The notes beneath the pieces are model-generated. The model saw nothing but the letters and a program-made list of their open reading frames with translations, was not told where the DNA came from and searched no databases. Of a stretch of DNA of 64,000 nucleotides, positions 36,601-55,508 are shown piece by piece (the stretch's first letter is position 1; every line of letters begins with the position of its first letter). This DNA comes from Harmothoe impar (lineage: Eukaryota; Annelida; Polychaeta; Phyllodocida; Polynoidae). Both the position numbers and the translations under genes were made by a program. Where the stretch lies: NCBI GenBank assembly GCA_947462335.1, contig OX381708.1, positions 43,279,377 through 43,343,376 of the forward strand, written 5' to 3'.

Positions 36601-39600
36601 CGGTCTCATGCAGTTCAGTATCATGTAATACCGTGCCATGCAATGCAATGCCTTGCAATGGCATGGCGTGCAATCCAGTGCCATGGTGTACAGTGCAGTG
36701 AACTGCTGGGCATTGATCCCATTGATGGAATCTCCATGGACCCATGCTGGACCCAGGTGCATAGTTGATACCTACATACTGAGCATAAGGTCAAATTAAA
36801 CAGTGCAATTTACTTGTTTGTGCAATGTTTGTGATGTGCAATTCGGTGCAGTGCAATGCCATACCGGAAAATGACTTGCAATGCTATACAATTCCGTGCT
36901 ATTCTGCGCTTTGCAATTCTGTGTCAATTCTGTTCTGTGCAATGCGGTGCCATACAATGCTGTGCCGTGCAATGCTTTGCAATGCAGTGCTGCGCAATGC
37001 AGTGCTGTGCAATGCAGTGCTGTGCAATGTCATGTCATGCAATGCCAGGTTGTGCAATGCCATGTTGTGCGATGTCATCCAATTCAGTGTCATGCAATGC
37101 GATGCGGTGTCACTGCAGTGCAGTGCCGTTCAATCATGCAATGCAATGCCATGCAGTGCCATGTCATGAGGTGCCATGCAATTCATTGTCACGCAATGCA
37201 GTGTTATGCAATGCCATGCCATGTAATTTGGTGCCGTGCAGTGCCGTATAATGTGGTGCCGTGCAATGCGGTCTCATGCAGTTCAGTATCATGTAATACC
37301 ATGCCATGCAATGCAATGCCTTGCAATGGCATGGCGTGCAATCCAGTGCCATGGTGTACAGTGCAGTGAACTGCTGGGCATTGATCTCATTGATGGAATC
37401 TCCATGGACCCATGCTGGACCCAGGTACATAGTTGATACCTACATACTGAGCACAAGGTCAAATTAAACAGTGCAATTTACTTGTTTGTGCAATGTTTGT
37501 GATGTGCAATTTGGTGCAGTGCAATGCCATACCGGGAAATGACTTGCAATGCTATACAATTCCGTGCTATTCTGCGCTTTGCAATTCTGTGTCAATTCTG
37601 TTCTGTGCAATGCGGTGCCATACAATGCTGTGCCGTGCAATGCTTTGCAATGCAGTGCTGCGCAATGCAGTGCTGTGCAATGCAGTGCTGTGCAATGTCA
37701 TGTCATGCAATGCAACGCCTTGCAATGCCATGCAGTGCCATGTCATGAGGTGCCATGCAATTCAGTGTCACGCAATGCAGTGTTATGCAATGCCATGCCA
37801 TGTAATTTGGTGCCGTGCAGTGCTGTGTAATGTGGTGCCGTGCAATGCGGTCTCATGCAGTTCAGTATCATGTAATACCGTGCAATGCCTTGCAATGGCA
37901 TGGCGTGCATGGCGTGCCATGTTGTACAGTGCAGTGCAGTGCTGGGCATTGATCCCATTTATGGAATCTCGATGGACCCATGCTGGACCCAGGTACATAG
38001 TTGATACCTACATACTGAGCATAAGGTCAAATTTAACAGTGCAATTCACTTGTTTGTGCAACTTGCACCTCACTGCCTGAACTCAATTGCCCTTAAAGGC
38101 CCAGATCTCTATAGCCCTCCAGCGACAGTCAGAGTGGGGCCGGGACAGGTACTCTGCGCTATTTATAAGGGCACTTGGGGTTTAATCAGATGGCAAGAAT
38201 AAATTAAATTATGATATGAACATGACAAAAACACCATAGATCTGAGGTATAACTGGGCCACTACAGAGGTACAATGTGCTATGGAATTGGTGTCCAGTTA
38301 TGAAATACAGATACTTACATTGCGGAATCTGAGAAGTATAACCCATCTCCAAGCATTCCTGGGTCTGACCGGCTCCCACCATAATCATCCACAACGATCT
38401 TGGGCATTAACAGACCTCTGTAATGTTCACAAATCAATTTAATCTGCATCTATTATATAAAGGAAGTTTTCATTTATTGCACATATTCATTGGAAATAAT
38501 GTCATACTAATTCCAGGTTGCTTACTAATAATTGATAGAGTTATGTGGTTTACCTTGATAAGATGCCCACAAAGTTCTGTGGTCTGGAGGCATGCAGTAG
38601 AAGCTGACGGTTACTCAGGTCATGTGTGAATCGTTCACTCTCTACAGACCTTCTAACCCTGTACACTCCCTGTACTTGAACACCCTCATCCCTATATACA
38701 GAGGTAAAGGGGATGGGAGTTAACTTGGACCTTTGTCATGAATCAAGCTAAATGTAATATACATGTACTACATTGCATTGAAACCTCAAACATAAAACAC
38801 ATAATAGGGTAATTGCATGTGGTAATTCCTTGTCACAGTGATGTTATGAATTATTCTTTATCCTTGGGAATTGGCTGTCTAAGACAAATTCTTCATTCAG
38901 GATCCTCAGCAGGGCCATTCCACTAAACGCCCTAGTTCATTCACTATAGATATATCAAACATATAGGTATTAGACCTTATTATCATCAAGAGTTATGATA
39001 ATAATGATGTTCAAAGAAAAACAAGCAAATAGAAAGTTGCTACATTCACATTCCACAGTTAACAGAATGGCAAATGATGGAAGGAATTTGATAAAGGCAT
39101 ATTGATGCATAATATATACAGGTTTGATGCATACATCTTTTCTTATATTGGAATGACCCTGCTGAGAGTCCTTAACTGCATCTTTCTTGAGATCATAATT
39201 AAATTCAGAACAATACATTTTAGTAACCTATGTTATAGTTAGGAGTCGGCATTGAGGCCCTTGAATATTCTTAGATCAGGGATTCTTTTTCTGGAGAAAA
39301 TGTGCGTACATACTTTATGGAAGCCCCCTTTACTGACGGGGTTGTCACCCAATTTTCAAGCCCTGTAAAAGTCTACCCCCCCCCCCCCCATAGGTTTTAA
39401 AACAAGTCACAAAAGAAAATCGATTTTCATCCACAAGCCCTCAGTGATGAAGGTATGCTATGTGGACAAATTGCCACTGACCACTACCATGGGAACCCTG
39501 TGTTAATGTGCCTGAAATTGGCTGTAACAGTGTAAGACACTTTTTGTCAGACTCAATGGTGCTTGTTCTTCTGTGCTCAGATGTATTACTGAAGATGAGG

Positions 39601-42600: not shown

Positions 42601-45600
42601 GGTGTATTGATCCCAAAATGGGTTGTTGTTTGTAAGATTGTTACATTATCAACATACCTCTTAAAGCTAATGCATGCAATGCATTTTTGTCAGTATAAGA
42701 TAAACTCTCCATGAAACAGGACATTCAAACTACAACTACATTGTACTTCAACAACCGGATAATATACGCTATAATGCTCTAATGCAATTCACCACTCTAC
42801 TGTAAATGGACAATTACTAAAACACTATTATCCACTGAAACGACCATTTTCAGTTGGCCAGCACTCAGCATGATAGCTAATATAGAGGCAGGGAAGGAAG
42901 ACATGGAAGGAACTGGACCAACTTCACAAGATAAGTTAACTGTCAAAGATGTACTTCATAGTTTCTCTACTACAGCATCAATGCATGGTCTAAGCAGAAT
43001 CACTGGAGTGCAGTACACTCCATTTAAAATTATATGGGTTTTAGCTACTTTGGTATGTTCCTGCATCCTTTTTGCCCAAATACAAAAACAGACTAGTGTA
43101 TTTTTCAAATATAATAAAAAGACTCTTGTTAATGTTAGATATTCCGAAATAGAGTTCCCAGATGTAACACTGTGCAACCATAGACACATAGATGTTGATA
43201 TTCTCTTCAGTTTATATAACCAGAGCTTTATGGACATGAACCCAAGAGACTTAGCAAAGGAGAAACATATCAAAAGAGCAAGACCTGGTCTAGAATTAGA
43301 TTTCATGGAAATACAAGCAGACTATGTGGAGACGGTGCGTAAATACTTGCCTTCACCCAAATATAGTAAGTTAATAGCACGGCCATTTTCAAGAACAATG
43401 TTCTGGTCACTGATGAACATGTCAAATGATGAAGTGGACTTGTTGATTGAACCTATGTATGAACTGGTACCAATCTGCTGGTGGGGAGAGCAGGAATGCA
43501 GGGAAGGAAAGATGGAAATAGCAGATGAATATTTCATGAAATGTCTGACACTGAGAGCCCCAGCTGACATGGTAGCCCAAGCAGGGATTGAAAACGGTCT
43601 GTCAGTAATTTCTTTAGTTGGGTCTGGTATGATCCCTTGGGATAAATTCCAAACGAACTATTCTGGTCCACTTATTCCTGGTCTTTATGAATTCAACCAC
43701 CCTCTTGGTGGTGCTGAGGGTCTGCGTGTGGTAGTGCATCAAAGGAATACACCTCCTTTACCAATGACTGAAGGGATCACAATACCTCCTGGATACATGG
43801 GATCACTGGGAATTACTGTGCATGAATATAAAAGGATGGGAAATCCACATGGTAACTGCACTGATTCTGATCCGTACGATAATAGCCAAAATAGCACATA
43901 CCGCATGTCTGTTTGCTTGAACAGGTGTATTCAAAATCACACAGTAGAAGATTGTAGCTGCAGTAGCCCTAGCTTACTGATAAACTTGTGGACTGCACAG
44001 AATATATTGAGTTGCACAGCAATTAAACGTCCCCAGCCTGTATGCCAGGTAAAAGACCCACCACTTGAATGCCTTGAACCCTTTATAGAAGTGGAGGAAA
44101 AAATGAACTGCTCAAAGGCAACGAAGAAAAAAGTTCTGAAACACATAAATAGATATTGCCAATGTCACCCCTCTTGTGAGGAACTTTCTTACAATGTAGG
44201 TTTTAGCTTGGCTACTTGGCCATCTAGAATGGAAGCTGATATTATATGGAAGCAGGAACTGGAACCTAAAATACAGTCATTTCTTTTACATGAAGGTATT
44301 TCTGATGTAAAACGCCAATTATACAAAAGCTATTTCACAGATTCGAACAGATATGATGCAATGAAAGATTTCACTAAGCTTAATGTTTACATCTCTGACA
44401 CAGCTGTTAAAATGACTATGGAAGAAGAAGATTATCCATTTCTAAATCTGGTGTCAGATATTGGAGGAGCTATGGGCCTCTGGGTGGGCATGTCTTTATT
44501 GAGTCTTATGGAATTTGTCCAACTTTTGGTTGATCTTTTAGCAACACTGGTTAGCGCGAACAGCAAAGTTGTCTAACTACATGTCCTAACATCGAAAGGC
44601 GGAAAATGAGAGAGCATTATACACACAATATATGTAGTTATGGAAATAGATATAACTAAAAACTATATTAGCTTGAGCAGTACCCATTGAATAGACATGT
44701 AAATGTTGTGTTTTTCTCTCAAAGGAAAACTGTATCCCATGATTAAATTGATACGTACAATGTCATACCACTTAATGCAGCCATACATATATACCTAGCA
44801 CTCTTATTCAGTACTTATATTGTAACTATCCATTGAAGCAAATAAAGGTTTTTGGTATTTCAAGACTATCCTACGATTAAACTACTAGGCTGCAATACAT
44901 ATAGCGAACACTTTTATCTGTTACTTGTATCATACCTGCCTATTGGAACAAATAAAATGCACTAACTTAAACACTTCATGTTGTTTTATTTTGCACCTGC
45001 ACGTAACATTACGAAGAATGAATTACCCTTCGCTAGTGGAAGACTTGCACTTATTTAAGGTGTACAGATGCATGGGCATCTGAATTTGAATACCCTCAAA
45101 GGCTATTAATTGAAAAAGGTTTCCACTTCTCCAGGACCGATAAGAAAACCAGGTTTATTAGTTAAAATGCTCACCTGCAGTCTCTGGTCTTTCAAGGCTG
45201 GTACATCCTGATCCGCTTCTCCCTGTGCATCATTGTTATAATCGTCCCAGATCACATCCCTGATGTCCACCAGCACTGCCTCTGCTGCCTCAACCTACTC
45301 AAGAATATGTATACTCAATTATTAATACTAATTATTCAATTATTAGTACAAATTACCAGAGCATTGGGAACTAGTGTAAACATATTTCAAGCTGTGTGGC
45401 ACCCTGGGTGTGGCATATAGTGAAGAGACCATTACCAGTGACTCCATTCCCTTTTGTCAAGTATAAGACAATTTTCTCATGGTATTTTATCTGGAGAAAT
45501 TTAGTACAATAGCAGGTCTACATGTATGGTGTTGAGTGGATTCATCCGCCGTTGAAGTAGAGTTTTCCGAGCTAGTTTACCTGGTCTAATGTTATGTTCT

Positions 45601-48600
45601 CAGGTGACACTGCAAGCTGTTCATCTAATTCTCCCACCGCTTCTGCCCAAAACAACTCCACAACACGTGTCACCTCTGGGTGAGGGGTCACTGTGCTCCA
45701 TTCTGTGTCCCTCAGGTACTGAAAGTATGAACACACATTTCTCCCAATTCAAGTGATTCCCAGTCATTTCTTCTAAGACACATTAGATTAGGCTAGTTTG
45801 AAAGTTTATTAATAAAGAATACTGATAGTTGACCACATGCTTTTCAACCTCGACAAAAAGGTATGGCTTTCGTAAGGCTGTAAACAAGTTTTGAATACAA
45901 TGTACCAGGGTAATAAGTGGTAGAGTAAAGCTGGACACAAAAGAATAATAAGGCAAACCCTAAAAGGTCTAACTGATAATAGATAAGAGTGAAGACACTA
46001 TACAAATCACTACAAGAGAGAAAAAATAATGCCTTTGCTTTTACATATCAGCATCTAAGTTTCCTTACAATCTAGCGACAAAAGTATCAGATCATATTGA
46101 AATTTAATACCTCTCTGTACTTGATGGACCCAATGCATGGGTGTAGCATTCCTTTACTTCGTGAGTAGCCATGCATAGGACAAGTATAGCGTTCATACAT
46201 TTGTGCATACACCGACAATGCTTCTTCTGTTGTTTCCACATAGCGACAATCCTTTGTGCCAAAATTGCTGTCATTACTCTGGAATCAATAGGAACCAGTA
46301 CAATATCAATATTACTACATTTTCATTTTAATATTTTCTCATGTAAATTTTTTCTCTAAAGGTTCAAGCAACCCTATAACATAAGATATTGCTTACTTTA
46401 GATTGGGGAATGGCTCCATAGTGCATGAAGATGCGGTATGGGTACTTGTACTGCTTCTCAGTGGAAGCATGTATCTCTATTACTATGAACTTCCTTTGCC
46501 TCCCTGCAGGGAACTGTGCAGTCTGCAAAAGAATTGTATGAATGTATTATTTAACATGACCTTTGGCTGCCAATTGGATTTTATATTGAAAATCATCCTC
46601 ACTTGAAGCTACCTTAAATGGATTGTATGTTTTGTCACAGATACACAGTGCACATGTTTATTTTTGTCATGTATAAATATATGAGGAGTTTGGTTCCAAA
46701 ATGCAATTTGAAAAGTGGCACCACATTATGACAAAGGTAAAGGGCATAGCTATGTAAGTCAATGCAATTTTGAAACAAATTTTCCTAAAAATTCAAATTT
46801 TCAAGTTTTAAGGTCCAATCAGGTATACATACAAATTACATCTGAGGCATCAGTGCCACTATGTTAGCCTTACAGATCTCAATACATGCTTCAATTCTGG
46901 AATACAATATCAAGTTAAATGGTTATGATATTAAATGCAGACATATATATATAAAATGTTCTTTCTTGTTCAGAGCTGAAGACAAATTGTCAAGCAGGAT
47001 GCATAGCAAAAATAAAATTGATGTTTGATGTTTGAACAATTGCATTACAAAGCTGTATGCATGGTAAGACATGCCTGTTCTTGGATTAGGGTAATACCCT
47101 TGGCCAGTTGGTAGCTCTCCTCGTCAAACTCTGGAGCTGATGCATCCCTCCAAGTCCATACTTGTAGTTTTTCAATATCCACATCCTTCTGGGACTTTTG
47201 AGCAGTGTTTGTTACTCTTGATTTAGCGGCTATTTTATATGGTAAAAAAAGTAACAAAATACATCAGGCCTATTTTGGGAAATGTTAACATTTTTAATGT
47301 ATTTTTGGCCAAAAAGAGAAGTAAAAGAATTTTAGTTCTTTTCAAATTGGGTCCAACCCTACCTAGCTTTTTTCACCAGGTTACTAGAAAGACACTCTTT
47401 TTGCCCTTACAGTATGTTACATCTTTTACAACATACCAATAGTTAGGTCTGTATCTTGTTTTCCAATACATAATATTGCAACATCTAGGCCTACTATCAC
47501 ATCTAATTAACTGGTGCATGTATCCATTCTATATTATATTGCATTGCAAACAACTTACACCCTATTTTTGTATATAATATATTTACAGCACTGTTGCATT
47601 ACCTAGGTATTAGGAATTTGGCTAGTTTACTAGAGCACCAAGTGTAACTGTCATCTTTGAAACCATGGTACTCAGCAGCGGCGGTAGATGCCTGATACAA
47701 CACTAGGATATATAATTATACTAGATCCGTTACATAAATGAATCTAGAGCCTATAGATTATCTAATGAGTTTCACTCCCTGTTAACAACATCTGTACTAA
47801 ATGCTACCAGGCCAGTGGGAGGAAGATGCAATCTCCTTATCTGGCTCTGCATCTAACATCAACCAGATATAAGCTGACATTACAATAATACTCACTCATG
47901 ATTCTGCCAGCGCTGAATGCATCTCTTTTGGTTGAGCCTGCTGCTAGAAAATTATCGTAGTCAACAAGTTTCCCATTTTCTATGCAGGAGTCAACAAAGT
48001 CAGCAACCAAAACAGGTACACCATAACGCTGAGCAGTCTGGGACCGGTATGATCCAGCTTGCTCTTTAGGGTCGGTCAGCAGGAGAAAGGATGACTAGAA
48101 AATGAAAAACATTATGTCATACATTCAGGCTTAGTTGTACATAATATAAAGTGGTTCATGACTTTCCTTTTAATGCTGCAATGAAATTAAAGAACCGGTT
48201 TCCTTTATTTTAACAATTCAGTTAGAAGCAACCATACTACCAACATGATACATAGCTCATTGTAAAAAAAAACAGGAGATAGCATTATCCACAAATACTT
48301 CAGTAAGCTGTATCTCAAAATATTGGGGGAAACACTGACATGATTTATTTTGAAGGGAAAAATAGTAATGACCTGACTTTTCTTGAAACTCTTAATTTTC
48401 TGCAAAACCATCGTATAAGACCCTGAGGGCACAGAGGTGCCCTGGGTCAATTATTTTTGAAAAATTATCCTTTAATAAATGAGATTCCTTAACTCATTTG
48501 CGAACTGAGCAACAGGTACCTACTTGCTTTGACACTGCGTAGGCAACTGTACCACCATTTTGTGTTATCTTCTCACTGAAAGCTTGCTTCTGCTTAAATT

Positions 48601-49524
48601 TCCAGGATGGACTGAACTCCACAGCAATCTTACATCCATCAAAGATGATTTCCTGCAATATACAAAACACGCTCCCATTTAATCATTGGGTAATAACTTA
48701 AACTGCTCCCAAATAATGTCACCAACCAATTATTGCACCAGATAATTTCAAAGTAAACTTACATGTTGTGGCACTTGCTGCATTTGTTTGAGAAAGAACT
48801 TCTCAAGCTTTTGACACATCATGGTGATATCCTATAAAGAAAGATAATCTTGATTAGACATTTCTGAATGCTCTAAATAAAGAACATAAAGGGATTATGT
48901 CCACCTGTTTCAATGCATCTAATGTTATAGGAATTTAATCAAAGAATATCACTTAAATGAAGACTTTAATAACTGACCATACAAGGATGGCTACAGAAAT
49001 ATATTATATGGATATGTGACGCTAACGAAGGATACCACTCACGCTGCCAGGTACGTTGAACAAATAAGTATTGGTGAACATTTGGTTGAAGTCCTGGACA
49101 CATTCTGCTACACTGCAGTAGACATTTGTTGCAAGGTTCTTCTTTATAGTTCCCAAATCCATAGGATGCTTGATGATCTGGCGATACTCCTGATTAAGTA
49201 GAAAAGGCACTGATTATGTACCAAGCTGTTACTTCAGGCTTTTCTTCCCAGTACGTTTACGACTCTATGATGAGAAAGCCATAATATTTCCAGGCATTAT
49301 TCATTGCAATTTTCGAATGTTAAGTGTATGGAGAAAGTACTTACTGGTATGTGAAGTGCTTCAGCATCTACAGGTTCGTGGAATGGCCATGCATCTTGAT
49401 GTCCCCATACAGCTTTCAGAACCTCTTCTTGTATAAACTTGAGCTGCTTTGTTACTATTTCCGGTCTCTTTAATTGAGGGTCCCTACTGGCCCCTGACCT
49501 CGTACCATTATCCATAGAGCTCAT
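619..49524 (-). CDS. PARP4: PARP4 (vault PARP) homologue with N-terminal bromodomain and FG-repeat exon, 36 coding exons
   Basis: Mono-ADP-ribosyltransferase expected to reside in vault particles through its C-terminal MVP-binding region. I reconstructed 36 coding exons by following GT/AG borders (one GC donor) and phase. Exon lengths sum to 11289 nt, an exact multiple of three, giving about 3762 residues against about 1724 in human PARP4. Domain order: bromodomain (about 20-132), BRCT (133-241), WGR-like (242-390), helical region (391-562), catalytic ART (563-787; H596, Y636, E706), VIT (788-961), VWA (about 1001-1286; D1071, S1073, S1075), linker (1287-1479), FG repeats (1480-3433), MVP-interaction end (about 3554-3762). 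The start is the first ATG of the first coding exon (49522-49524). Sixteen nt of 5' UTR precede it in that exon, after an acceptor at 49541, so a non-coding exon must lie further right. Orthology rests on collinear similarity across the whole human protein. Introns host an LTR element, a nested channel gene, MITEs and satellites. Confidence 0.93.
1792..2228 (+). repeat. 5' LTR of the 12.7 kb element
   Basis: 437 bp, TG...CA. A TATA-like box lies at 1970-1977 and a polyadenylation hexamer AATAAA at 2122-2127. The sequence matches 14044-14480 except for one visible A/T difference in the segment just after ATAGATACTGCT. Confidence 0.97.
2230..2241 (+). other. Primer-binding site, probably tRNA-His
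   Basis: TGGTGCCGTGAC starts one base after the LTR and is complementary to the 3' end of metazoan tRNA-His (including CCA) as I remember it. The match stops after 12 nt. Confidence 0.7.
2438..5011 (+). CDS. gag: Gag polyprotein of the 12.7 kb element
   Basis: Structural polyprotein of 857 residues if started at the first ATG (2438). The frame is open further upstream only with non-ATG starts. The N-terminal third has heptad-like, Glu/Lys/Arg/Gln-rich coiled-coil stretches, and a second long coiled coil (residues about 330-440) is rich in Ala, Glu and Gln. A basic Arg/Gly patch (RARGRGRAS) lies between them. The C-terminus has one CCHC zinc knuckle, C831-x2-C834-x4-H839-x4-C844, for RNA packaging. 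At 857 residues it is long for a Gypsy Gag. Its last codons form the slippery heptamer GGGAAAC just before the TAG stop, and the pol frame overlaps it by 76 nt in the -1 frame. Confidence 0.9.
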   Translation: MNCSLDEMSLSIFNVGGSRSAAPNPRRATILEERRFDDMREARIQERVQMAQMELLTIQKQSNEWKSSLIALEGAVTHRASKIKEKDARLSTLLEENEKLVQSLSRVRVEFDQKQADLQGLRSDFVQANTDLNQICAARDAVIHEAEETRSELVRDTEDLREARRSLLSECDILKAKRTSLEKFLSETRESIQDSSTSYASADNDSPKGPHYRSFTDTPNLPMGRGMTVEGALSTSTPGRPLKVGRARGRGRASDYSPRVGISGIRPIPKQVFSAPTGVNTAGRGRSLSELVRSPRSQLKLDEQQLDSERLKKASEQDKAAKTDLTPSSLSQWRECQANILFNEQKNLELERRDVYRKQQAALEQQQERMKENAALAEELAEQEAAVLRARQEGLRAAGEAAKAKLAEAQQEEEAERQAKELEKEKAAHQRLLALAQQCQYMTDQEKNWWFSQGVDPTKDLVSYGTYQTYLERQNNVPTRGATPGITPGAKSPRRAPRRTILSTELQELYDTNPAIAGIGLHNVGTEKDASASISKCLAITSKIRGSSNAARRIASEPFPYWQKNSWEEWLGATVEDINLSGWDQQDAIPYVCKGLRLGDGLMAVEQWKDECGPRGTFKQLVEIGTILYGDSARIDPMVAFKKRVQGKHEAPRVFGLALMRLLKKVHPASGIHDALFSKELFSQFVAGLRDPEIQHVVYDTWRADTSLDDLFKAIDIHALKKSLLGDRVPTRASAIIECSPEQSDGSGSEEEGAIASAAQFKRNGNSSKTPWKNRKPEGGGNPPPKKESSDPKAPIMDAAFFTSLFEKMTTSIQGATQPNRRKINRRTAKCYRCLEIGHFAAECTAPTPKVPGKEGN
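5002..5046 (+). promoter_or_regulatory. -1 ribosomal frameshift signal between gag and pol
   Basis: The heptamer G GGA AAC (5002-5008) lies in the correct gag phase, immediately before the gag stop TAG (5009-5011). Downstream, 5013-5018 can pair with 5041-5046 and 5020-5024 with 5035-5039. This makes an almost continuous 11-pair stem with one G-G mismatch and a 10-nt loop. The spacer is 4 nt. Slippage would place the ribosome in the pol frame, which is open across the site. Confidence 0.85.
5008..9177 (+). CDS. pol: Pol polyprotein (protease, RT, RNase H, integrase) of the 12.7 kb element
   Basis: Made as a Gag-Pol fusion by -1 frameshifting. The open frame itself begins at 4936, and residue numbers here count from there. 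Aspartic protease has the active site FLVDTGAS, D165. Reverse transcriptase has [12 protein letters not shown] and YLDD at 585-588. RNase H has D737/D739 in LDTDAS. Integrase has an H2C2 zinc region around residues 980-1024 and the catalytic triad D1049, D1109 and E1145 with exact DD35E spacing. A GPY/F-like motif [10 protein letters not shown] follows. The basic C-terminal tail ([12 protein letters not shown]) has no recognisable chromodomain. All catalytic residues are intact and no stop interrupts the frame, so it could be functional. Confidence 0.94.
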   Translation, partial: LEGVVREGERTTPAYDVRQHTREVEPSEIPKAGRESGVASSLRGSDAGLVNIPVQQLPGNEAGRPITDRNEEVVAVTDTVWVGSTQLSPDHPCFDHLKKHGLDLAAPKDFKRFTVNPSPLGGRRWYVSVTVAGRAGEFLVDTGASHSFISSNFYALMPDSRDNFKTRVNACSADGSSMQTYGRAFIPLRIGGKEYVASPTIADIADDGILGLDFSALYDAVLNPGTGVLLIEHPYRAVEQCVLRQVSTVATVVQTVKIPPGQTCDVLVRSKGLRREEEAVVEPDVAMLGSIGLTGMDTLVGDGAWTVVPVSNPGLEPKYLRKDTILGKVFTSEAVMPAGQVSMKGDPSPTVLSEGLEKMISETDLTDRRDLDSLRRLVVKYQDAWQVEGEPLGRTDKVLHSINTGDAQPFKMPYRRLPLGKKAVVEEQVKTMLEQKVIVPSTSPWSSPVQMVTKKDGSIRFCIDYRRLNGVTKKNAYPLPRIDETLDSLGGNQWFCTLDLQSGYWQIGMKEEDKEKTAFTSHIGLYQFELMPFGLCNAPATFEAMMETLLSDLLWRKCLVYLDDVIVFGKTFEECALNLGEVLERIRSNGLTLKPKKCELFRKSMVYLGRIISTEGVQADPAKLETVETWEVPKGPKDIRSFLGFCSYYRDFIPGFSRVSQPLQRLSHWTPGRKKEPFPWGMEQNEAFKEIKALFRTTPVLRYPTEKGHFILDTDASNESIGAALSQIQDGVEVPLAFASNSMNKAQRNYCTTKRELLAVVVYTKSFRHFLYGGNFTLRTDHSALRWVLNFKDAEGMIGRWLNHLSEFGLENSHIQHRAGTKHINADCLSRRPVRRCVRPECGDCGAHNAVVASVRLPYDGLLQNLLDWSTDTIRTYQMADPTIARLRELVPTGVCPVRPEISLENREMRRFLAQFHELEVRDSLLCRWKTCPGKRRVLQMVIPAAMRKDILYYCHGHSTSGHFGKKRSLERLSRRYYWPGMSGDLLRWIETCPACCLGKPGPGLGKLPLQQELFGVRFARIAVDIISGVKPTPKGNTCMMVVSDYYTKYTRVYPLEDHTAATCAEALVKGWILHLGAPLMLHSDQGREFESKLWTAMCHQLAICKTRTNPYRPQSDGQVERFNRTLIQVLKPLVNSHMDDWDDQCEFVVHAYNNTVHTSTNCTPNLLVFGEDLIMPADLVFGVVGISPEAPCTVLFVESLRERFKFAYETVRAHLLKAANWQKVGYDTGLKLRRFVVGDRVIRLHEPLCNVKLANNWDGPHTVVKCISQTTVLIQSEAGRIRTSHVARLRAWAGRELTPETEVEKGTSEAKFVPLEGVSVDTPKRVVQKKLRKTVKKKVSAGEGRRARKTKIKAGVLVKNECPSARLREVDGKPVRRSPRLVARGAVT
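9178..9762 (+). promoter_or_regulatory. Spacer between pol and ORF3 with candidate internal TATA-less promoter
   Basis: The 585 nt after pol hold no ORF but contain a CCAAT box (9494-9498), a palindromic TGCGCATGCGC matching the NRF1 consensus (9511-9521) and CGCCATATT matching YY1 (9549-9557). They cluster within 65 bp, about 200 bp before the first ATG of ORF3. The surrounding 9.4-9.6 kb is CpG-rich. This resembles a housekeeping-type promoter. A splice acceptor for a subgenomic RNA would be an alternative. Confidence 0.5.
9763..11304 (+). CDS. Accessory ORF3 of the 12.7 kb element, function unknown
   Basis: 513 residues from the first ATG. The frame is open back to a GTG at 9679. I do not recognise the family. 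An acidic and Ser-rich N-terminus is followed by a long histone-H1-like segment rich in Lys, Ala and Pro ([21 protein letters not shown]), which suggests nucleic-acid or chromatin contact. Then come Pro/Val-rich repeats around EVPVRV, and a better-ordered C-terminus with [22 protein letters not shown] and [15 protein letters not shown]. There is no signal peptide or membrane segment, so it is not an envelope protein. It lies between pol and ORF4 in the same orientation. Confidence 0.75.
   Translation: MAEQQLRQSELTGHSEVASATEEAMDAQSPSGDELSQTLADLRVDPAVSPIRKSPSPDGSEDSGVLQGLAYTQVAADPSETTARPSRICSLSISPNLQKTVARKLSMGSGSDSDTSCPRTRGGKGATRDRSKSADTKASTKAIKHTGVGKKPPGKDEPKKPAPKKESTASTKKPGSKAATAAASKDPKTVDPKAPATKAPKGQKKADPKPGAKDQPGKGPTSDSTKTVKTPGPSKSNLPIPAKGKGSGKAVVTTAAPTPAVDVLSFSRGLDNSSEVAATAAAMAGTKGHGGARPKTVVPPEAPRTKEAMDTASAAHTVQVVQDVLSGITFNLPTPLEPRKEVPVRVELPPPKEVPVRVDTPPQSTKPALEPSNTMDISEEAGKLDQAAGGGPTGSGVQILAPHQHDAWEKEDADVPSLLRGAIIDQMSATEVRSFDLIQMRTFRGLDELSARFPAWFPDRLTAAMNDLSKQSETARLVAETEGRPELIAALEYDLQTAAEFKTVHSRGRRGDF
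11313..13175 (+). CDS. Accessory ORF4 of the 12.7 kb element, two C2H2-like zinc motifs, coiled coil and acidic tail
   Basis: 620 residues. The start ATG is 8 nt after the ORF3 stop and in the -1 frame relative to ORF3. Two zinc-finger-like motifs are visible: C186-x4-C191-x21-H213-x4-H218 and C227-x10-C238-x14-H253-x4-H258. The inter-Cys/His spacing is unusual for a classical C2H2 finger. Basic patches follow (KVRRAQKRP, residues about 330-345), then a charged coiled coil (about 515-590, [15 protein letters not shown]), and an acidic tail ([11 protein letters not shown]). No transmembrane segment is seen. A DNA- or RNA-binding role is plausible, but I do not recognise a family. Confidence 0.75.
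   Translation: MKLARSMEQKTKESILDATLEDEMIQQNTAAARSADTSQMEKANRRDQYLPETIKVTSRKGGRSDEEVEAVLKGLDENTIPDDELQVLVRNALRANAASGFKYFKPMCVNDCVKDKRASHIPEEVGPDGLSDDEEWIKTDPLEKSVQLYHFELLDKVRNGSTKYHSPFQKAKLAWAMARWHPFSKCPFEPCLNVDETLETPRTWPSKVRYARHITRFHLRHYMRYDCLSVGTKQSKGCPNGGWFYTRADIIRHLAKQHGLALDVAAERIQTAHQEVYSHFPPVVGRNENLEVDFGTNERGKVRVFYKVNPDGNYNRVPEGELFDEFEEYQKRTSTRKVRRAQKRPSGSSEQADSKKAKTDERKSVMEKADPGYKGPAFTSHTTDWKKGPQGRPPRSVPEDPNSSTMGSFAEEFPENEMVPGDESQTLTQTGKTKAPAKKTPKPVQTPDLPPETAEEGRLVLRLKSPPSFPPADFTSYEAGQEAFGQWQDNFHRLLAGLSQEVAMLSLNTVHHLHQREVATQKAAATESVQEERENARTERCAAKTERKKQKLAVKNAEEKLDHERRRFRDCFAHEMHEWDGTRAQIELWLQELTLAEAASDSEEEEEPAQPGSGDESDSG
13176..14043 (+). other. 3' non-coding region and polypurine tract of the 12.7 kb element
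   Basis: No ORF. A perfect 8-bp hairpin (AGTCCGAA / TTCGGACT, 5-nt loop) lies at 13973-13993. The purine-rich stretch GGTAGGGGGTAG (14032-14043) directly abuts the 3' LTR and is the likely polypurine tract. Confidence 0.75.
14044..14480 (+). repeat. 3' LTR of the 12.7 kb element
   Basis: 437 bp, TG...CA, near-identical to the 5' LTR, followed by the target duplication TATT at 14481-14484. Confidence 0.97.
14809..15249. mobile_element. TACCGTAA-type inverted-repeat element (probable dimer)
   Basis: It begins TACCGTAAAACTTCTTGTAC and ends with the inverted form TTTACGGTA. A second start (TACCGTAAATTCTCGCG) occurs internally at 15028, making the right half about 222 bp, the size of related copies at 24.6 and 61.75 kb. 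The element is non-coding and lies in a PARP4 intron. Confidence 0.7.
16137..21999 (-). other. PARP4 exon 32: 5.86 kb exon of GLFG/FG nucleoporin-like repeats
   Basis: One open exon with acceptor at 22000 and donor at 16136 (GTATGT), encoding residues 1480-3433. After a short charged lead, the chain is built from units such as [14 protein letters not shown] and [14 protein letters not shown]. Several dozen GLFG or FG motifs are separated by Ser/Gly/Thr/Asn/Gln-rich spacers with few charged residues, like FG nucleoporins. From about 18.4 to 21.3 kb the units form a higher-order repeat of about 230 bp. A second block (16.5-17.8 kb) uses [18 protein letters not shown] units and holds a 225-bp direct tandem duplication (16636-17085). 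Vertebrate PARP4 has a shorter Pro/Ser/Phe-rich region here. If the donor is skipped, the frame reads on to a stop at 15995. Plus-strand ORFs across the exon are shadows of the repeat. Confidence 0.88.
22226..24096 (-). other. PARP4 exons 26-31: post-VWA linker
   Basis: Exons 24016-24096, 23804-23884, 23600-23707, 23243-23408, 22676-22763 and 22226-22281 encode residues 1287-1479. [20 protein letters not shown] matches human [19 protein letters not shown], and [13 protein letters not shown] matches DVDFLPYMSWQGE. The last two exons are acidic and lead into the FG-repeat exon. Confidence 0.88.
24121..24419. mobile_element. 299-bp MITE, PIF/Harbinger-like
   Basis: Terminal inverted repeats GGGAGTGCTCATTTTTTAAC match the right end apart from one base, and 3-bp TAA duplications lie at 24118-24120 and 24420-24422. 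The interior is G/C homopolymer runs and is non-coding. The TWA target and GGG terminus suggest PIF/Harbinger. The element ends 24 nt upstream of the acceptor side of PARP4 exon 26. Confidence 0.8.
24575..24800. mobile_element. TACCGTAA-type inverted-repeat element, ~222 bp
   Basis: It starts TACCATAAATTCCCGCGTAC and ends ATACGCGGGAATTTA, with CCGCGGGTT-like repeats inside. It is a degenerate member of the same family as 61751-61977. Confidence 0.7.
24921..25414. mobile_element. TACCGTAA-type inverted-repeat element, 494 bp
   Basis: It begins TACCGTAAAACCCCTCCG and ends GGCGTTTTACGGTA, with GGCTTATAGGTG and related inverted subrepeats inside. The interior is AT-rich and non-coding. Confidence 0.65.
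25785..28024 (-). other. PARP4 exons 20-25: VIT/VWA linker and VWA domain
   Basis: Exons 27908-28024, 27597-27734, 27195-27381, 26896-26969, 26446-26636 and 25785-26052 encode residues 962-1286. The metal-ion-dependent adhesion motif DxSxS is present as D1071-M-S1073-N-S1075. [13 protein letters not shown] supplies the second VWA metal region. [16 protein letters not shown] upstream matches human LPRMWVEKHPE. The intron upstream of exon 20 (28025-32767) is filled by two satellite arrays. Confidence 0.92.
26209..26426. mobile_element. TACCGTAA-type inverted-repeat element, 218 bp, diverged
   Basis: The ends read TACCCTAAATTTTCATG and ATTTACGATA, and the internal phrase GTATAAGCCTAACACGCG matches the 14.8 kb copy. 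It lies in the intron upstream of PARP4 exon 25. Confidence 0.6.
28184..28951. repeat. Satellite of ~127 bp, about six copies, with YY1-like motifs
   Basis: Units carry ACACCCTAGGAAACCCTA, CAATCTTGAATTTTTGG and, in most copies, GGCGGCCATCTTGG followed by CAGCCATCTTGG. Copies are near-identical and contiguous in the intron between PARP4 exons 19 and 20. The first copy lacks part of the CCATCTTGG pair. Confidence 0.9.
29400..31712. repeat. Satellite of ~105 bp, about 21 copies
   Basis: Units share AAATGCCATCACACCAGGGA, ACTATAGTTATCAGCAAAGT, TGGTCCACTCTCCTCA and AACTCCCAATAGTT, diverged by point changes and small indels. At about 29783-29921 the array is interrupted by a fragment ending TTTTTTTACGGTAG, related to the TACCGTAA elements. 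Confidence 0.9.
31711..31815 (+). repeat. Short dispersed repeat with CTTAAAG and TATAAATAG
   Basis: CCTTAAAGCCCCAG, TATAAATAGGGCTGAGTACC and CTGACTGTCGGTGGAGGG recur in inverted orientation at 38091-38180. It is non-coding and of unknown type. The rest of the intron to 32767 shows only G/C homopolymers. Confidence 0.55.
32768..34313 (-). other. PARP4 exons 17-19: VIT domain
   Basis: Exons 34183-34313, 33244-33468 and 32768-32932 encode residues 788-961. [20 protein letters not shown] and the stretch [20 protein letters not shown] are nearly identical to the human PARP4 VIT (vault protein inter-alpha-trypsin) domain. Confidence 0.93.
35900..38060. repeat. Short-unit (10/20-bp) tandem array with higher-order copies
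   Basis: Units of the type GTGCAATGCAGTGCTGTGCA repeat with a basic step of about 10 bp. The array is organised into three long copies marked by CCATGGACCCATGCTGGACC near 36735, 37403 and 37971 (steps about 668 and 570 bp). All reading frames stay open because the unit lacks stops, but the peptides are Cys/Met/Val/Ala repeats and not genes. Confidence 0.9.
38091..38180 (-). repeat. Inverted copy of the CTTAAAG/TATAAATAG dispersed repeat
   Basis: In reverse orientation it carries TTATAAATAGCGCAGAGTACC and CTGACTGTCGCTGGAGGG, matching 31711-31815. It directly follows the short-unit tandem array. Confidence 0.55.
41151..41735. mobile_element. Inverted-repeat element with AATAGGCGCC motifs, ~0.58 kb
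   Basis: Ends are ATCGTCGCGTTTTGG (41161) and its complement CCAAAACGCGACGAT (to 41724), and weaker complementarity extends outward through ATATAC. The interior repeats TTGAATAGGCGCC near both ends. It is non-coding, lies in a PARP4 intron, and I found no clear target duplication. Confidence 0.7.
42870..44576 (+). CDS. DEG/ENaC family cation channel subunit, intronless, nested in a PARP4 intron
   Basis: 568-residue subunit of a trimeric, amiloride-sensitive-type sodium channel at the plasma membrane. Visible family features: cytoplasmic His-Gly gating motif (H39-G40 in SMHGLSR); TM1 about residues 52-70 ([16 protein letters not shown]); FPDVTLCNH just outside TM1; a large Cys-rich extracellular loop with sequons such as NQSF, NMSN, NYSG, NSTY and NHTV; the conserved [10 protein letters not shown]; and TM2 about 527-560 with the selectivity-filter position GMS (540-542), where ASICs have GAS. 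Length is normal for the family. The single-exon structure on the strand opposite PARP4 suggests retroposition or the intronless style of some invertebrate DEG/ENaC expansions. An acceptor-like TTTTCAG (42848-42854) just upstream could mark a 5' UTR exon. Ligand and ion preference cannot be told. Confidence 0.93.
   Translation: MIANIEAGKEDMEGTGPTSQDKLTVKDVLHSFSTTASMHGLSRITGVQYTPFKIIWVLATLVCSCILFAQIQKQTSVFFKYNKKTLVNVRYSEIEFPDVTLCNHRHIDVDILFSLYNQSFMDMNPRDLAKEKHIKRARPGLELDFMEIQADYVETVRKYLPSPKYSKLIARPFSRTMFWSLMNMSNDEVDLLIEPMYELVPICWWGEQECREGKMEIADEYFMKCLTLRAPADMVAQAGIENGLSVISLVGSGMIPWDKFQTNYSGPLIPGLYEFNHPLGGAEGLRVVVHQRNTPPLPMTEGITIPPGYMGSLGITVHEYKRMGNPHGNCTDSDPYDNSQNSTYRMSVCLNRCIQNHTVEDCSCSSPSLLINLWTAQNILSCTAIKRPQPVCQVKDPPLECLEPFIEVEEKMNCSKATKKKVLKHINRYCQCHPSCEELSYNVGFSLATWPSRMEADIIWKQELEPKIQSFLLHEGISDVKRQLYKSYFTDSNRYDAMKDFTKLNVYISDTAVKMTMEEEDYPFLNLVSDIGGAMGLWVGMSLLSLMEFVQLLVDLLATLVSANSKVV
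44841..44846 (+). terminator. Candidate polyadenylation signal of the DEG/ENaC gene
   Basis: AATAAA lies 265 nt after the channel stop codon. A second AATAAA at 44951-44956 is an alternative. Confidence 0.55.
46111..47229 (-). other. PARP4 exons 6-8: degenerate WGR-like region
   Basis: Exons 47075-47229, 46397-46522 and 46111-46278 encode residues 242-390. [11 protein letters not shown], then YRIFMHYG, then a helix ending in YERYTCP resembles the WGR fold, with HYG in place of Trp-Gly-Arg. The fold assignment is an inference from this pattern. The donor of exon 6 (47074-47075) reads GC rather than GT. Confidence 0.65.
47896..48652 (-). other. PARP4 exons 4-5: BRCT domain
   Basis: Exons 48524-48652 (phase 0) and 47896-48094 (ends phase 1) encode residues 133-241. 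The motif [15 protein letters not shown] matches the glycine turn of a BRCT domain (human PARP4 has IKENGGKFSFSL). [20 protein letters not shown] matches the terminal Trp/Phe helix. This is the position where vertebrate PARP4 starts. Confidence 0.88.
48763..49524 (-). other. PARP4 exons 1-3: BET BD1-like bromodomain
   Basis: Exons 49345-49524, 49043-49189 and 48763-48831, all phase 0, encode residues 1-132. The fold is a bromodomain closest to the first bromodomain of BET proteins. The WPF shelf is at residues 46-48, a PVDA motif follows at 51-54, the conserved Tyr is at 62, PMDLGTIKK is at 69-77, and the acetyl-lysine-anchoring Asn is at 105 in the motif TYLFN. The last exon supplies the final helix ([13 protein letters not shown]). 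All acetyl-lysine pocket residues I know of are present, so binding of acetylated lysine is plausible. Human PARP4 begins directly with BRCT and lacks this module. The intron to the BRCT exon is only 110 nt and phase-matched, which argues for one transcript rather than two neighbouring genes. Confidence 0.9.
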
Positions 49525-49794: not shown

Positions 49795-50635
49795 TAGCAC
49801 TGGATAACGATTTTGCACTGAAAAACAGTTTTGCACTGAAAAACAGTTTTGCACTAAAAACGGTCTTGCACTATGAAACGGTTTTGCACTTTGAAACGAT
49901 TTTGTATTTGAAAACGATTTTGCACTTGAAAATGGTTTAGCCCTAAAAACCAGTTTTGCACTGAAAAACAGTTTTGCACTGAAAAACAGTTTTGCACTGA
50001 AAAACGTGCCGGCACTGAAAAACGGTTTACAATTACCACTGGAAAAACTCTTTTGCACTAAAAAGCTGTTTTGCACTTAAAAAAGTTTTTGCATTGGAAA
50101 ACGGTTTTGCACTTAAAAACGTTTTTGCACAAACAAATGTTTTGCGCTGAAAAAACATTTTGCACTACAAAAACGTTTTGCACTATAAACGTTTTTTTGC
50201 GCTGGAAAGCGTTTTTGCACTAAAAAGCGCTTATGTTCTAAAAAATACCGGTTTTGCACCAAAAAAAATGTTTCTGCACTGAAAAACCATTTTGCACTAA
50301 AAAACGGTTCTGCACTATGATCTTTTTGCACTGGAAAACGTTTTCACTAAAAAACGCTTCTGCACTGGAAAACGGTTTGCACTAAAAAAAAATCGGTTTG
50401 CACTAAAAAACATTTCTGCACTGAAAAACGTTTCTGCACTGAAAAATGGTTTTGCACTATAAAATGTTTTTGCACTGAAAAATGGTTTTGCACTGAAAAA
50501 CAGTTTTGCACTGAAAAACAGTTTTGCACTGAAAAAAGGGTTTTGCACTGAAAACGGTTTTGAGCTCAGAAACAGTTTTGCACTCAGAATCGGTTTTGCA
50601 CTGGAAAACAGTTTGCACTGGAAAACTAGAGACTT
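49795..50635. repeat. ~18-bp minisatellite TTTTGCACTGAAAAACAG, about 45 copies
   Basis: Units of 16-19 bp of the form TTTTGCACTGAAAAACAG, with variation at the ends (CGG, CGT, AAC), fill about 0.84 kb upstream of the PARP4 coding start. Minus-strand reading frames of Phe-Ser-Val-Gln-Asn type are repeat artefacts. The following 50636-50961 shows nothing recognisable. Confidence 0.92.
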
Positions 50636-50961
50636 TGCCTATCATGCCTATATTGTTTGTGGTTAGGGAGTGGTCATTAGCTTTACAAGAACAGGTAACA
50701 GGTCGCCTTAACGCAGTTACGATAGTACTTGTTATTGTAGGTCAAAACAGTTACCATAGTCCACCTGATTCTAGAAGCCCTTCATACTTCTGGTCTAGAC
50801 AATTTCATGATGTATTTATAGTGGCCCAAATGATAAAGTATGGTTCCAGCTGTAACTATACAGCTATGCAATACCACAGCTGCCATAAACACAGTGTAAT
50901 CCCCACTTTTGATTCTCTATGCTACAGTGGGGATCCCTAAATGGTGATCTGGCAACTGCAG

Positions 50962-51203: not shown

Positions 51204-51413
51204 TAGGTCATCTTCCATGCCCACAACAAGAAAAGTGCCAAATTGAAGTGAGACACTCAAGTTGGTGTTGAAAAGTGATGAACTCAAGAATCTGTGAGGA
51301 GAGAACTTTTCTAAAAAAACCTCCAGAAGCATTTACCAAGACCCCAAGCTGTTCATTGTGTGTATAATATTGACTGTCAGTAGACCTACATTAAAAGCAG
51401 TGACAATTTTGAA

Positions 51414-54400
51414 ATGGCTGCCAACAGTGTAAAACCCCCAGAAACCCTCAAAATTGAGAGGGGTAACCCATCACATTCATGGTCTCTGTGGAAGAGAAGG
51501 TTTGAGATATATCTCAAGGCCATAGGCTCCAGCACAGAGCCTAATGAAAAAAAGGTGGGACTCCTACTGAATCATATTGGGGATGATGGGATAGACATTT
51601 ATGACAGTTTTGTATTCCTCCCACAACATCCAAATCCAGTCCAGGGACAAGCTCCCATACCAGCTGAGGACCCAAATAACTATAATACTGTGCTACAAAA
51701 GTTCACAGAATATTTTGGAAAAAGGGACCCCCAACTGCTACTAAGGGAAAAGTTTTGGTTCACCCTCAAAAGGGGACCATCTCAAACTCTGGAGTCATGG
51801 GTGCTAACAGTCAAGAAGAGTGCAGGTGAATGCAAATTCCCACAGACCTACATGGACCAGGCTGTGCGCGATAAACTGACATTTTCATGTACCGACCAGT
51901 CGGCAAAGTCGAAGCTCTATGATGCCGGTGCAGGGCTTACGCTGGAGAGAACAGTAGAGATACTCTACCAAAAGGAGACTACGCGCTATGAGCTCCAAGA
52001 GTCAAAGAGTGCCAATATCGACGTAGTCCACAGCAAGGCCAAGAAGAAGCCGGACCCGAGCAGAACCGAGAAAAAGAGAAATACTGGTGACAAAATCAAG
52101 TGCGGATTCTGTGGTACCGAACACCTCAAAGGGAAGAAAAATTGTCCCGCAGTGAATCACTCCTGTGAGAAGTGTAAAATAAAAGGACATTTTTCCCAAG
52201 TTTGCCGTACTTCAAGAGCGCGGATTTCTCAAGTCGCAGAGGAAGAGTCGGGAGACGATATACCCGATGACGGAGTGTCGCACGTATTTATCGGCAGCGT
52301 AACGAGCGAAGTAAATGCGGCTTCATCAAAATCCGTCCCAGACGACAAATCGAGTTCAAGCAAAGGCTGGTACATTAAACTCAGAACTGGCTCCGATACT
52401 CTATCGTGGTACATAGACTCTGGAGCCGAGATATCGGTGATGCCCGATACATACTACAAGAAGTCCTATGGAGAGATCCAACCAACAAGAAAGACGCTGT
52501 ATGCTACAGGCGAGCATCCGTTACAGACGCTAGGATGTGCTCGTATGCAGTTGAGTCGCGGAGACACTACCGTCCACGAAGACGTCAACGTAGTGCGAGG
52601 CGTTAAATCGCTTCTCCTCGGACAACCTGCAATTGAGAAACTAGGACTGATACCTAACATCCCTGGCGCCTATAGGGTCAAAGCCGTGAACAGTGAAATC
52701 CCGAAGTTGGACACGAAGGACGAAGTGGTCAAAGCTTACCTGAAGCTCTTTACAGGACTTGGTAAGCTGAAAGGTGAATATGCTATAAGACTCAAAGATG
52801 ATGCTAAACCATTCTGCCTCTATACTCCACGTAGTGTGCCAAAGCCTCTGATGAAAAAGGTAGAGCAGGGAATCGCAGCATTAGTAAAGTCAGAAGTTAT
52901 CGAGCCCGTAGACGAACCAACAGATTGGTGTGCACCCATGGTGGTTGTACATAAACCAAACGGGAATCTACGGCTGTGTGTGGACTTGACAAGACTCAAC
53001 CAGGGCGTCCGACGTGAACTCTACCAGATGAAAAAGGTAGAGGAGACCCTGGCGTGTATTTCAAGCGGAGCTGTATTCTCCAAGCTAGATGCAAATTCTG
53101 GCTTCCACCAGGTACTGTTGACTCAAGAGAGTTCAAAGCTGACGACATTCATCACGCCGTTTGGAAGGTACATGTTCAGGAGACTTCCCTACGGTATATC
53201 ATCTGCTCCTGAACACTTCCAAAAGAGAATGGACAAAGAACTGACTGGACTACAAGGAGTGTTGTGTCACATGGATGACATTCTTGTAATTGGAAAGGAC
53301 AAACAAGAGCACGATGAACGCTTGGCGAAAGTGCTGAACCGCCTCCAAGAGAGCGGCATCACTCTAAACCAAGACAAGTGTGAGTTCTCCACAACCAAGC
53401 TTCGCTACCTTGGCCAGGTGATAGATGCTGATGGCATCAGGAAGGATCCAGCAAAGGTCAAAGCCATCATAGAGATGCCAGACCCCAAAGACGTCCCAGA
53501 TGTCCGACGATTCCCCGGCATGGTGAATCACCAGATGAAATTCCTACCGAACCTTGCCGAAATCACCAAACCAGTCAGAGATCTCCTCAAGAAAGATTCT
53601 GCATGGACTTGGGATCTTCCACAAAAGAAAGCGTTTGAGAAACTGAAACAGGAACTAGCTTCAGACGAAGCTCTCGCTTTGTATGACCCCGAACGTGAAA
53701 CGATAGTGTCAGCAGACGCAAGTAGCTACGGTCTTGGGGCAGTTCTGAGACAACGTCAAAAAGATGGAAGACTGAAAGCCGTTGCATATGCCAGCAGGTC
53801 AATGACAAAGACTGAATGCCGATACGCGCAAATCGAGAAGGAAGCATTAGCGACCACATGGGCACTCGAACATTGGAGTAACTTAGTTATCGGTATGCGA
53901 GTCCACGTGGAGACTGACCATAAACCGCTTGTGCCACTATTCTCAACCAAACTGATCGACGAACTGCCAGTGAGGATCCAAAGATTCCGACTGAGATTAA
54001 TGCGGTTCGACTTCACAGTCAGTCACGTGCCCGGTAAAAGTCTAATGACCGCAGATACCTTGTCAAGAGCGCCTCTTGGTGAGCATATGCTGGAGAGCGA
54101 AGAACTTCATAAGCAAGAAGAACTACGTAAGGAATCTGACGCATACGTACAAGCAGTACTTGTCTGTCTACCATCATCTGACCAGAGACTCAACGAGATA
54201 CGGTCAGAGCTAAAGAAAGACGATGTCCTGAAGGTAGTGATACACCATATTGAACATGGGTGGCCGGAGAACAGACGTGACGTCTATGGACCTTTGGTTA
54301 AGTTCTGGAACGAACAGGGCAACCTTACAGTTCACGATGGACTACTCCTTTGAGGAAAACAGCTTGTCATCCCAGCAAGTCTGAGGATTGACGTCTTACG

Positions 54401-55508
54401 CCATCTACATGATGGGCATCAGGGCATCACTAAGACCCGTGAGAATGCCAACGCATCAGTGTGGTGGACAGGAATGTCCAAAGACATCGAAAAGACAGTG
54501 AAAAATTGTAACATTTGTGAAAAGTACAGACATGAACGTGTCGAACCGATGAAAGGAACTGAGTTCCCAGAACGACCGTGGTCTAGAGTAGCGGCAGACT
54601 TTTTCCACCATAAGGGGTCCATGTACCTCCTCATTATAGACTACTATTCTAGAGACATGGAAGTGTGCCAAGTTGGCAAGAACGTTGATACCACTGAGAC
54701 AGTAAAGAAGATGAAAAGAGCATTCTTCCATCAAGGTATACCCGACATACTATTCAGCGACAATGGTCCTCAATTCGCATCAGCGGAGTTCAAAAACTTT
54801 GCAGCAGAATACAGATTTGAACACATCACATCATCTCCAAGATACGCACAAAGTAACGGAGAAGTAGAGAGAGCGGTGCAAACCATCAAAGCGATCCTTA
54901 ATAAGGCTGACGATGAGTACCTTGCCCTTATTTCTTATCGCAACACCCCTCTACTGTCAGGATTCTCCCCAGCTCAGCTGAACATTGGTCGCAGACTAAA
55001 ATCACTGGTGCCGTGTCACCCGGATGAACTAAAACCGCGCATCCCAGATGCAGCGCTCGTTCGAAGGAAGGAGAAGGAATACCGGAAGCAGATGGCAGTG
55101 AACTACAACCAACGCCACCGAGTCACAGAAGCAGACGAACTGTCACCAGGAGACCGAGCATGGCTACCCGACCTACGAGTGGAAGGGAAGGTCATAGGAA
55201 AAGCCCCCGGACCGAGATCCTATATAATCTCTACACGGAATGGACTAGTGAGACGTAACCGTAGAATGACGAGAAATCTCGGGCCCGGACAAAATGACAA
55301 CATTGATCCGACCACCATACTAACCAAAGTGGTCACACCGCCTAGTGATCATGTGCCTCCAGTGGAGATCACTGATATACCTCCAGTGGTCCCTCCACCG
55401 ACTCCACCAACTCCTGATCGAGGTGCCACACCCCGTGTGCCCGATCCGGGACCAAGGAAGTCGTCGAGACCTAGAGTCGCGACGAAGAGACTGATTGAAG
55501 AAGTTTAA
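51414..55508 (+). pseudogene. gag-pol: gag-pol of the 5.05 kb element, interrupted by one in-frame TGA
   Basis: The ATG at 51414 opens a single gag-pol frame. It runs 979 codons to a TGA at 54351-54353 and continues in the same frame to 55508, so the copy carries one nonsense change and no frameshift that I see. Domains: gag with a CCHC knuckle (CEKCKIKGHFSQVC) preceded by a Cys-rich segment; protease with DSG, D335 (WYIDSGAE); RT with HMDD at 619-622 instead of the usual YxDD; RNase H with D768 (SADASS). After the stop, integrase has D at 54597, D at 54759 and E at 54867, which gives DD35E spacing. The C-terminus is Pro-rich. The stop separates RT/RNase H from integrase, so this copy should not transpose alone unless the stop is read through. 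Confidence 0.92.

Follow-up and report, generated by a model that had tools for sequence, protein, structure and literature searches.

Structure of the locus

We analysed a stretch of 64,000 nucleotides of the Harmothoe impar genome (hereafter the window), whose reverse strand carries a PARP4 gene with bromodomain-encoding exons directly upstream of its BRCT exons. The following parts of this gene were delineated (positions are those of the window, given in the direction of reading):

49524-49345 (-), exon 1, coding part, 180 nt: opens with the ATG at 49524 and encodes the N-terminal linker and the beginning of the bromodomain, including the WPF motif
49189-49043 (-), exon 2, 147 nt: middle of the bromodomain, including the conserved Tyr and the anchoring Asn
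48831-48763 (-), exon 3, 69 nt: last part of the bromodomain
48762-48653 (-), intron between the bromodomain and BRCT exons, 110 nt, phase 0, GT-AG, with one ATTAAA at 48683
48652-48524 (-), exon 4, first BRCT exon, 129 nt, first codon GAA
48094-47896 (-), exon 5, second BRCT exon
47229-47075 (-), exon 6 (probable), post-BRCT region, resembling by eye the PARP4 of a hemichordate
38691-38554, 38417-38319, 35126-34943 and 34831-34579 (-), PARP catalytic exons (PF00644, E 1.2e-26)
34313-34183, 33468-33244 and 32932-32768 (-), VIT exons (PF08487, E 1.2e-34)
27381-27195, 26969-26896, 26636-26446 and 26052-25785 (-), vWA exons (PF13768, E 3.4e-21)
21999-16026 (-), giant FG-repeat exon, 5974 nt, 1991 aa, nucleoporin-like
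1587-619 (-), C-terminal region, with weak similarity to the PARP4 C-terminus

The lengths of the first four exons are all multiples of three, and the introns that separate them (155, 211 and 110 nt) are without exception GT-AG and of phase 0. The donor of exon 3 is consensus-like (CAT|GTAAGT) and has the same phase as the BRCT acceptor; read through from exon 3, the 110-nt intron runs into a stop after 4 codons. The bromodomain exons have no stop of their own, and the spliced frame of bromodomain and BRCT exons is free of any stop. When exons 1-6 were joined, the resulting 293-residue peptide matched the Pfam Bromodomain family (PF00439, E 2.4e-20, residues 33-117) as well as BRCT_2 (PF16589, E 3.6e-8) and BRCT (PF00533, E 4.2e-7); the presence of both domains in one joined reading is far beyond chance. 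The donor of exon 6 is uncertain (47098 GT or 47075 GC, among others). At the other end, an acceptor-like site (TTATTGCAG) precedes the start ATG at 49524, and a further 5' exon is therefore likely.

Two repetitive elements were observed upstream of the start codon: a long, degenerate array whose units resemble 'TTTTTCAGTGCAAAAC' (49800-50640, (-), recognised by eye) and, just upstream of the bromodomain exons, a Gypsy-like retrotransposon with an open pol frame (51384-55508, (+)).

The body of the PARP4 gene

The gene model was built with a human PARP4 as guide and then rebuilt with 12 database PARP4s; it runs on to the opposite end of the window. The PARP, VIT and vWA families (PF00644, PF08487 and PF13768) follow one another in this order within a 787-residue piece of the model, and the BRCT domain lies N-terminal to the PARP domain. 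In its catalytic part 92 of 160 residues are identical to PARP4 of the hemichordate Glandiceps, and alignments with two PARP4s show that the H, Y and E residues, which we take to be the catalytic triad of PARP4, are retained. Towards the C-terminus, the human guide gave weak matches (E 0.13 and 0.30) at 1608-1486 and 729-646; the end of the protein (619-1587) may correspond to the MVP-interacting part of PARP4. The joins in the C-terminal region (15.3-1.6 kb) are uncertain because mobile elements lie at about 2-13 kb, and the later model, which also took in pieces of mobile elements (2-15 kb) and small exons that are doubtful (32060-31942, 31775-31760), is not trusted in these parts. Both gene models skip exon 6. 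The exon-chaining script worked with hand-set splice weights, a start fixed at 49524 and exons 1-5 and the FG frame as given input; since the start and exons 1-5 were prescribed, the model lends no independent support to the joint between bromodomain and BRCT.

In a PARP4 tree of 42 rows, computed by a quick method, the window protein (end branch 1.25) fell inside a set of seven rows with 98% SH-aLRT support (two vertebrates, two lancelets, Owenia, Lineus and the window itself) with no firm nearest row; among the rows compared, the closest PARP4 shared 47% with it.

A probable single gene across the bromodomain-BRCT joint

The 5' end of the BRCT region was compared with that of PARP4-like proteins recovered by database search (the best 120 of 633; these rows are not independent, as, for example, twelve of them, P0104-P0115, are forms of one bass species). 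BRCT was matched in 116 of the 120, and in 87 of these 116 at most five residues precede the point at which the BRCT exon of the window begins, while 26 have 6-60 residues and three have more than 60. Most listed relatives thus start with their ATG where the exon of the window opens with GAA (Glu). Upstream of this exon ten codons are in frame, none of them ATG, before a TGA is reached, and the sole Met in the 109 residues of both BRCT exons is residue 109. For an intact BRCT to start at an ATG, a coding exon further upstream is therefore required; the only candidates that we found, in a non-exhaustive look, were the bromodomain exons, 110 nt away and in the correct phase. We infer that splicing bridges the joint and predict a mature messenger that spans it. 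The first-pass annotation, made from the letters alone, had described three phase-0 bromodomain exons fused to PARP4 through a phase-matched 110-nt intron: the exons are borne out by their lengths, GT-AG introns and Pfam match, and the fusion is supported by phase, splice dinucleotides, the lack of a start Met in the BRCT exon and the stop-free spliced frame. The fusion anatomy was seen in one sequence from one species, and the evidence for it, read from genomic DNA, is strong but indirect. Against it may be set a conceivable alternative 5' exon that lacks the bromodomain, near-cognate GTG and TTG codons in frame inside the 110-nt intron and the ATTAAA in that intron.

The bromodomain might nevertheless be an optional first module, with two promoters or first exons, so that only some of the PARP4 messengers would carry it. 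The BRCT acceptor could take any upstream phase-0 exon, and the acceptor-like site that precedes the start codon suggests additional 5' exons; against this, the same non-exhaustive look upstream revealed no other candidate exon, and we consider such an arrangement unlikely.

Less probable still is a separate small gene, whose messengers would terminate within intron 3 or beyond it and encode a single-bromodomain protein of ~136 residues, with PARP4 starting independently. The stop met four codons into the read-through of exon 3 would fit such a gene, as would the ATTAAA at 48683, which could serve as an early polyadenylation site. This reading is however at odds with the donor of exon 3, which is in phase with the BRCT acceptor, and with the lack of any Met before residue 109 of the BRCT exons or of an in-frame ATG upstream of them.

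Identity and conservation of the bromodomain

Bromodomains are domains that bind acetylated lysine. Among 397 matched sequences of solved structures, the best 60 were all named BRD4, BRD3 or BRD2, and a BRD4 chain with two bromodomains matched the domain of the window far better through its first (131 bits) than through its second (69 bits). In the alignment with solved structures the WPF shelf, the 'EYRQ' Tyr and the 'YLFNVPG' Asn are all in place, as had been claimed at first pass, and we assume that they act in acetyl-lysine binding as shelf, binding Tyr and anchoring Asn. We computed a tree of 51 rows (25 first and 25 second bromodomains of BET proteins, BD1 and BD2, plus that of the window), for which the 25 BET proteins were hand-picked from the 120 that showed two bromodomains among 153 matches. 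With a support of 100/100, the domain grouped with the 25 BD1 sequences, apart from the 25 BD2 sequences; its end branch is long (0.81), which leaves its position within BD1 unsure. Its median identity is 55% to BD1 (up to 60% for single rows of the 25) and 37% to BD2, as compared with 71% among the BD1s themselves. The original BET-type label can hence be narrowed to BD1 by the bit scores and the tree.

That the exons might be a decaying copy, a BET BD1 fragment drifting without function in PARP4, is a reading for which the long branch and the low identity (a median of 55% to BD1 against 71% among BD1s) could be cited. We hold it to be very improbable: the three exons are open and have GT-AG borders, and the losses are concentrated at variable positions, with 34 of the 40 positions conserved at >=95% among BD1s being kept, versus 31 of the 69 others. 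This difference in retention suggests that constraint, rather than decay, acts on the domain. Of the positions conserved in both BD1 and BD2, 20 of 23 are kept. The six BD1-conserved positions that were lost show the changes N>K, L>I, D>E, C>T, Y>F and M>V, of which Y>F immediately precedes the anchoring Asn and C>T lies four residues before it.

An assembly chimaera of two unrelated loci, for which nothing direct speaks beyond there being a single sequence, is barely credible, since a random join would hardly yield a matching donor, acceptor and phase within a 110-nt intron together with a BRCT exon devoid of a start Met.

When four full-length BET proteins were compared with the window, nothing besides the bromodomain exons matched at E <=0.1, and we therefore see no second bromodomain, ET domain or other remainder of a BET gene in it. 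A neighbouring BET gene was considered as the source of the exons, and the same four queries revealed none in the 64-kb window. The copy of BET BD1 exons would have come to lie beside PARP4 by exon shuffling.

The giant FG-repeat exon

The exon at 21999-16026 encodes 113 FG and 48 GLFG motifs within its 1991 aa and holds tandem repeats with unit lengths that include 231 and 465 nt. FG density reaches a maximum of 45 per 500 aa; in PARP4 relatives (best 120 of 633) the median is 4 and the highest value 41. Its placement is like that of the largest exon of vertebrate PARP4, which, according to PMC4038475, is highly variable in sequence and length, under positive selection and, in human PARP4, almost wholly disordered.

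Comparison with known PARP4-like and BET proteins

The gene shares with animal PARP4, or vault PARP (Clade 5A, PMC2964712), the order of BRCT, PARP, VIT and vWA and a large low-complexity exon (PMC2964712 and PMC4245714). It differs from animal PARP4 in the 1991 aa of its FG exon, in lacking a start Met at the BRCT exon and in having a bromodomain, a family (PF00439) matched in 0 of 120 PARP4-like rows (best 120 of 633). These rows stem from a search with a 1788-residue query, of which residues 1-1230 were scored, among proteins of about 983-3129 residues (633 found). Direct comparison of the bromodomain with the same 120 rows gave nothing better than E 1.2, and the three proteins with more than 60 residues before BRCT (P0030, P0040 and P0089) showed no bromodomain match.

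Conversely, searches with the bromodomain-BRCT part (residues 1-241) returned 92 proteins (lengths of about 1208-3845) and 62 proteins (about 303-963); in 0 of these 154 was a PARP or BRCT family found, and the BRCT compared with them directly gave nothing better than E 2.3. All of these protein searches reach only sequences that share exact 5-residue words with the query within the stated length ranges. As regards BET proteins (BRD2, BRD3, BRD4, BRDT and fsh), the domain resembles their first bromodomain; unlike in them it is single and attached to PARP4, with no BD2 or ET elsewhere in the window.

Gain of extra domains is a trait that the gene has in common with other Clade 5 PARPs, for which ubiquitin-related, 14-3-3 and actin-type modules are described in PMC4245714; several PARP4-like matches (best 120 of 633) likewise bear PF00240 or PF00244. 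In two surveys of PARP evolution (PMC4245714 and PMC2964712) the word-start 'bromo' occurs 0 times. Among the literature matches listed, judged by titles and the beginnings of abstracts, none describes a bromodomain-PARP4 fusion. The combination thus appears unreported in anything that the searches showed, and the novelty across animals that was initially proposed has survived protein and literature searches within these bounds.

Proposed function

We propose that the BET BD1-type exons, in frame upstream of the PARP4 BRCT, form with it one predicted protein, whose bromodomain likely tethers the ADP-ribosyltransferase to targets bearing acetyl-lysine (a reading of the sequence to which we assign a probability of about 0.68). 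The pocket of the bromodomain would bind acetyl-lysine and keep the enzyme on the acetylated target, the surroundings of which the catalytic domain could then ADP-ribosylate; binding may in this way steer or gate the modification of chromatin or of acetylated vault partners. Chromatin could be a target because PARP4, besides its presence in vaults, is reported from the nucleus, the telomere and the mitotic spindle (PMC2964712). The FG exon, for its part, could favour passage through the nuclear pore.

A more far-reaching version, rather unlikely in our estimation, would see in the protein a natural converter of acetylation into ADP-ribosylation, i.e. a vault ADP-ribosyltransferase equipped with a BET reader and a nucleoporin-like FG domain that is nearly 2000 residues long, an enzyme which might cross the nuclear pore to mark acetylated chromatin, or whose bromodomain might serve as an integrated bait for viral mimics of acetylated histones. 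The bait idea follows from the proposal, made in PMC4038475, that PARP4 acts against viruses.

What PARP4 does in vaults is described as still unclear (PMC4245714) and the function of vaults as elusive (PMC13100048). A well-known ligand class on PARP4 would offer a direct handle, as the ligand of the bromodomain would tell the intended target of the enzyme. The predicted fusion would moreover constitute a natural single-chain link between the acetylation and ADP-ribosylation marks.

Additional elements within the window

A second Gypsy-like retrotransposon with an open pol frame lies at 2279-9177 (+), and two long overlapping open frames at 9628-13175 (+) had no Pfam match at E 0.001. A low-complexity array inside a PARP4 intron (35721-38080) has open frames on both strands. 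Also within an intron of PARP4, on the opposite strand, an apparently intronless frame of 597 codons (42783-44576, (+)) encodes a DEG/ENaC-type sodium channel (PF00858, E 4.8e-66).
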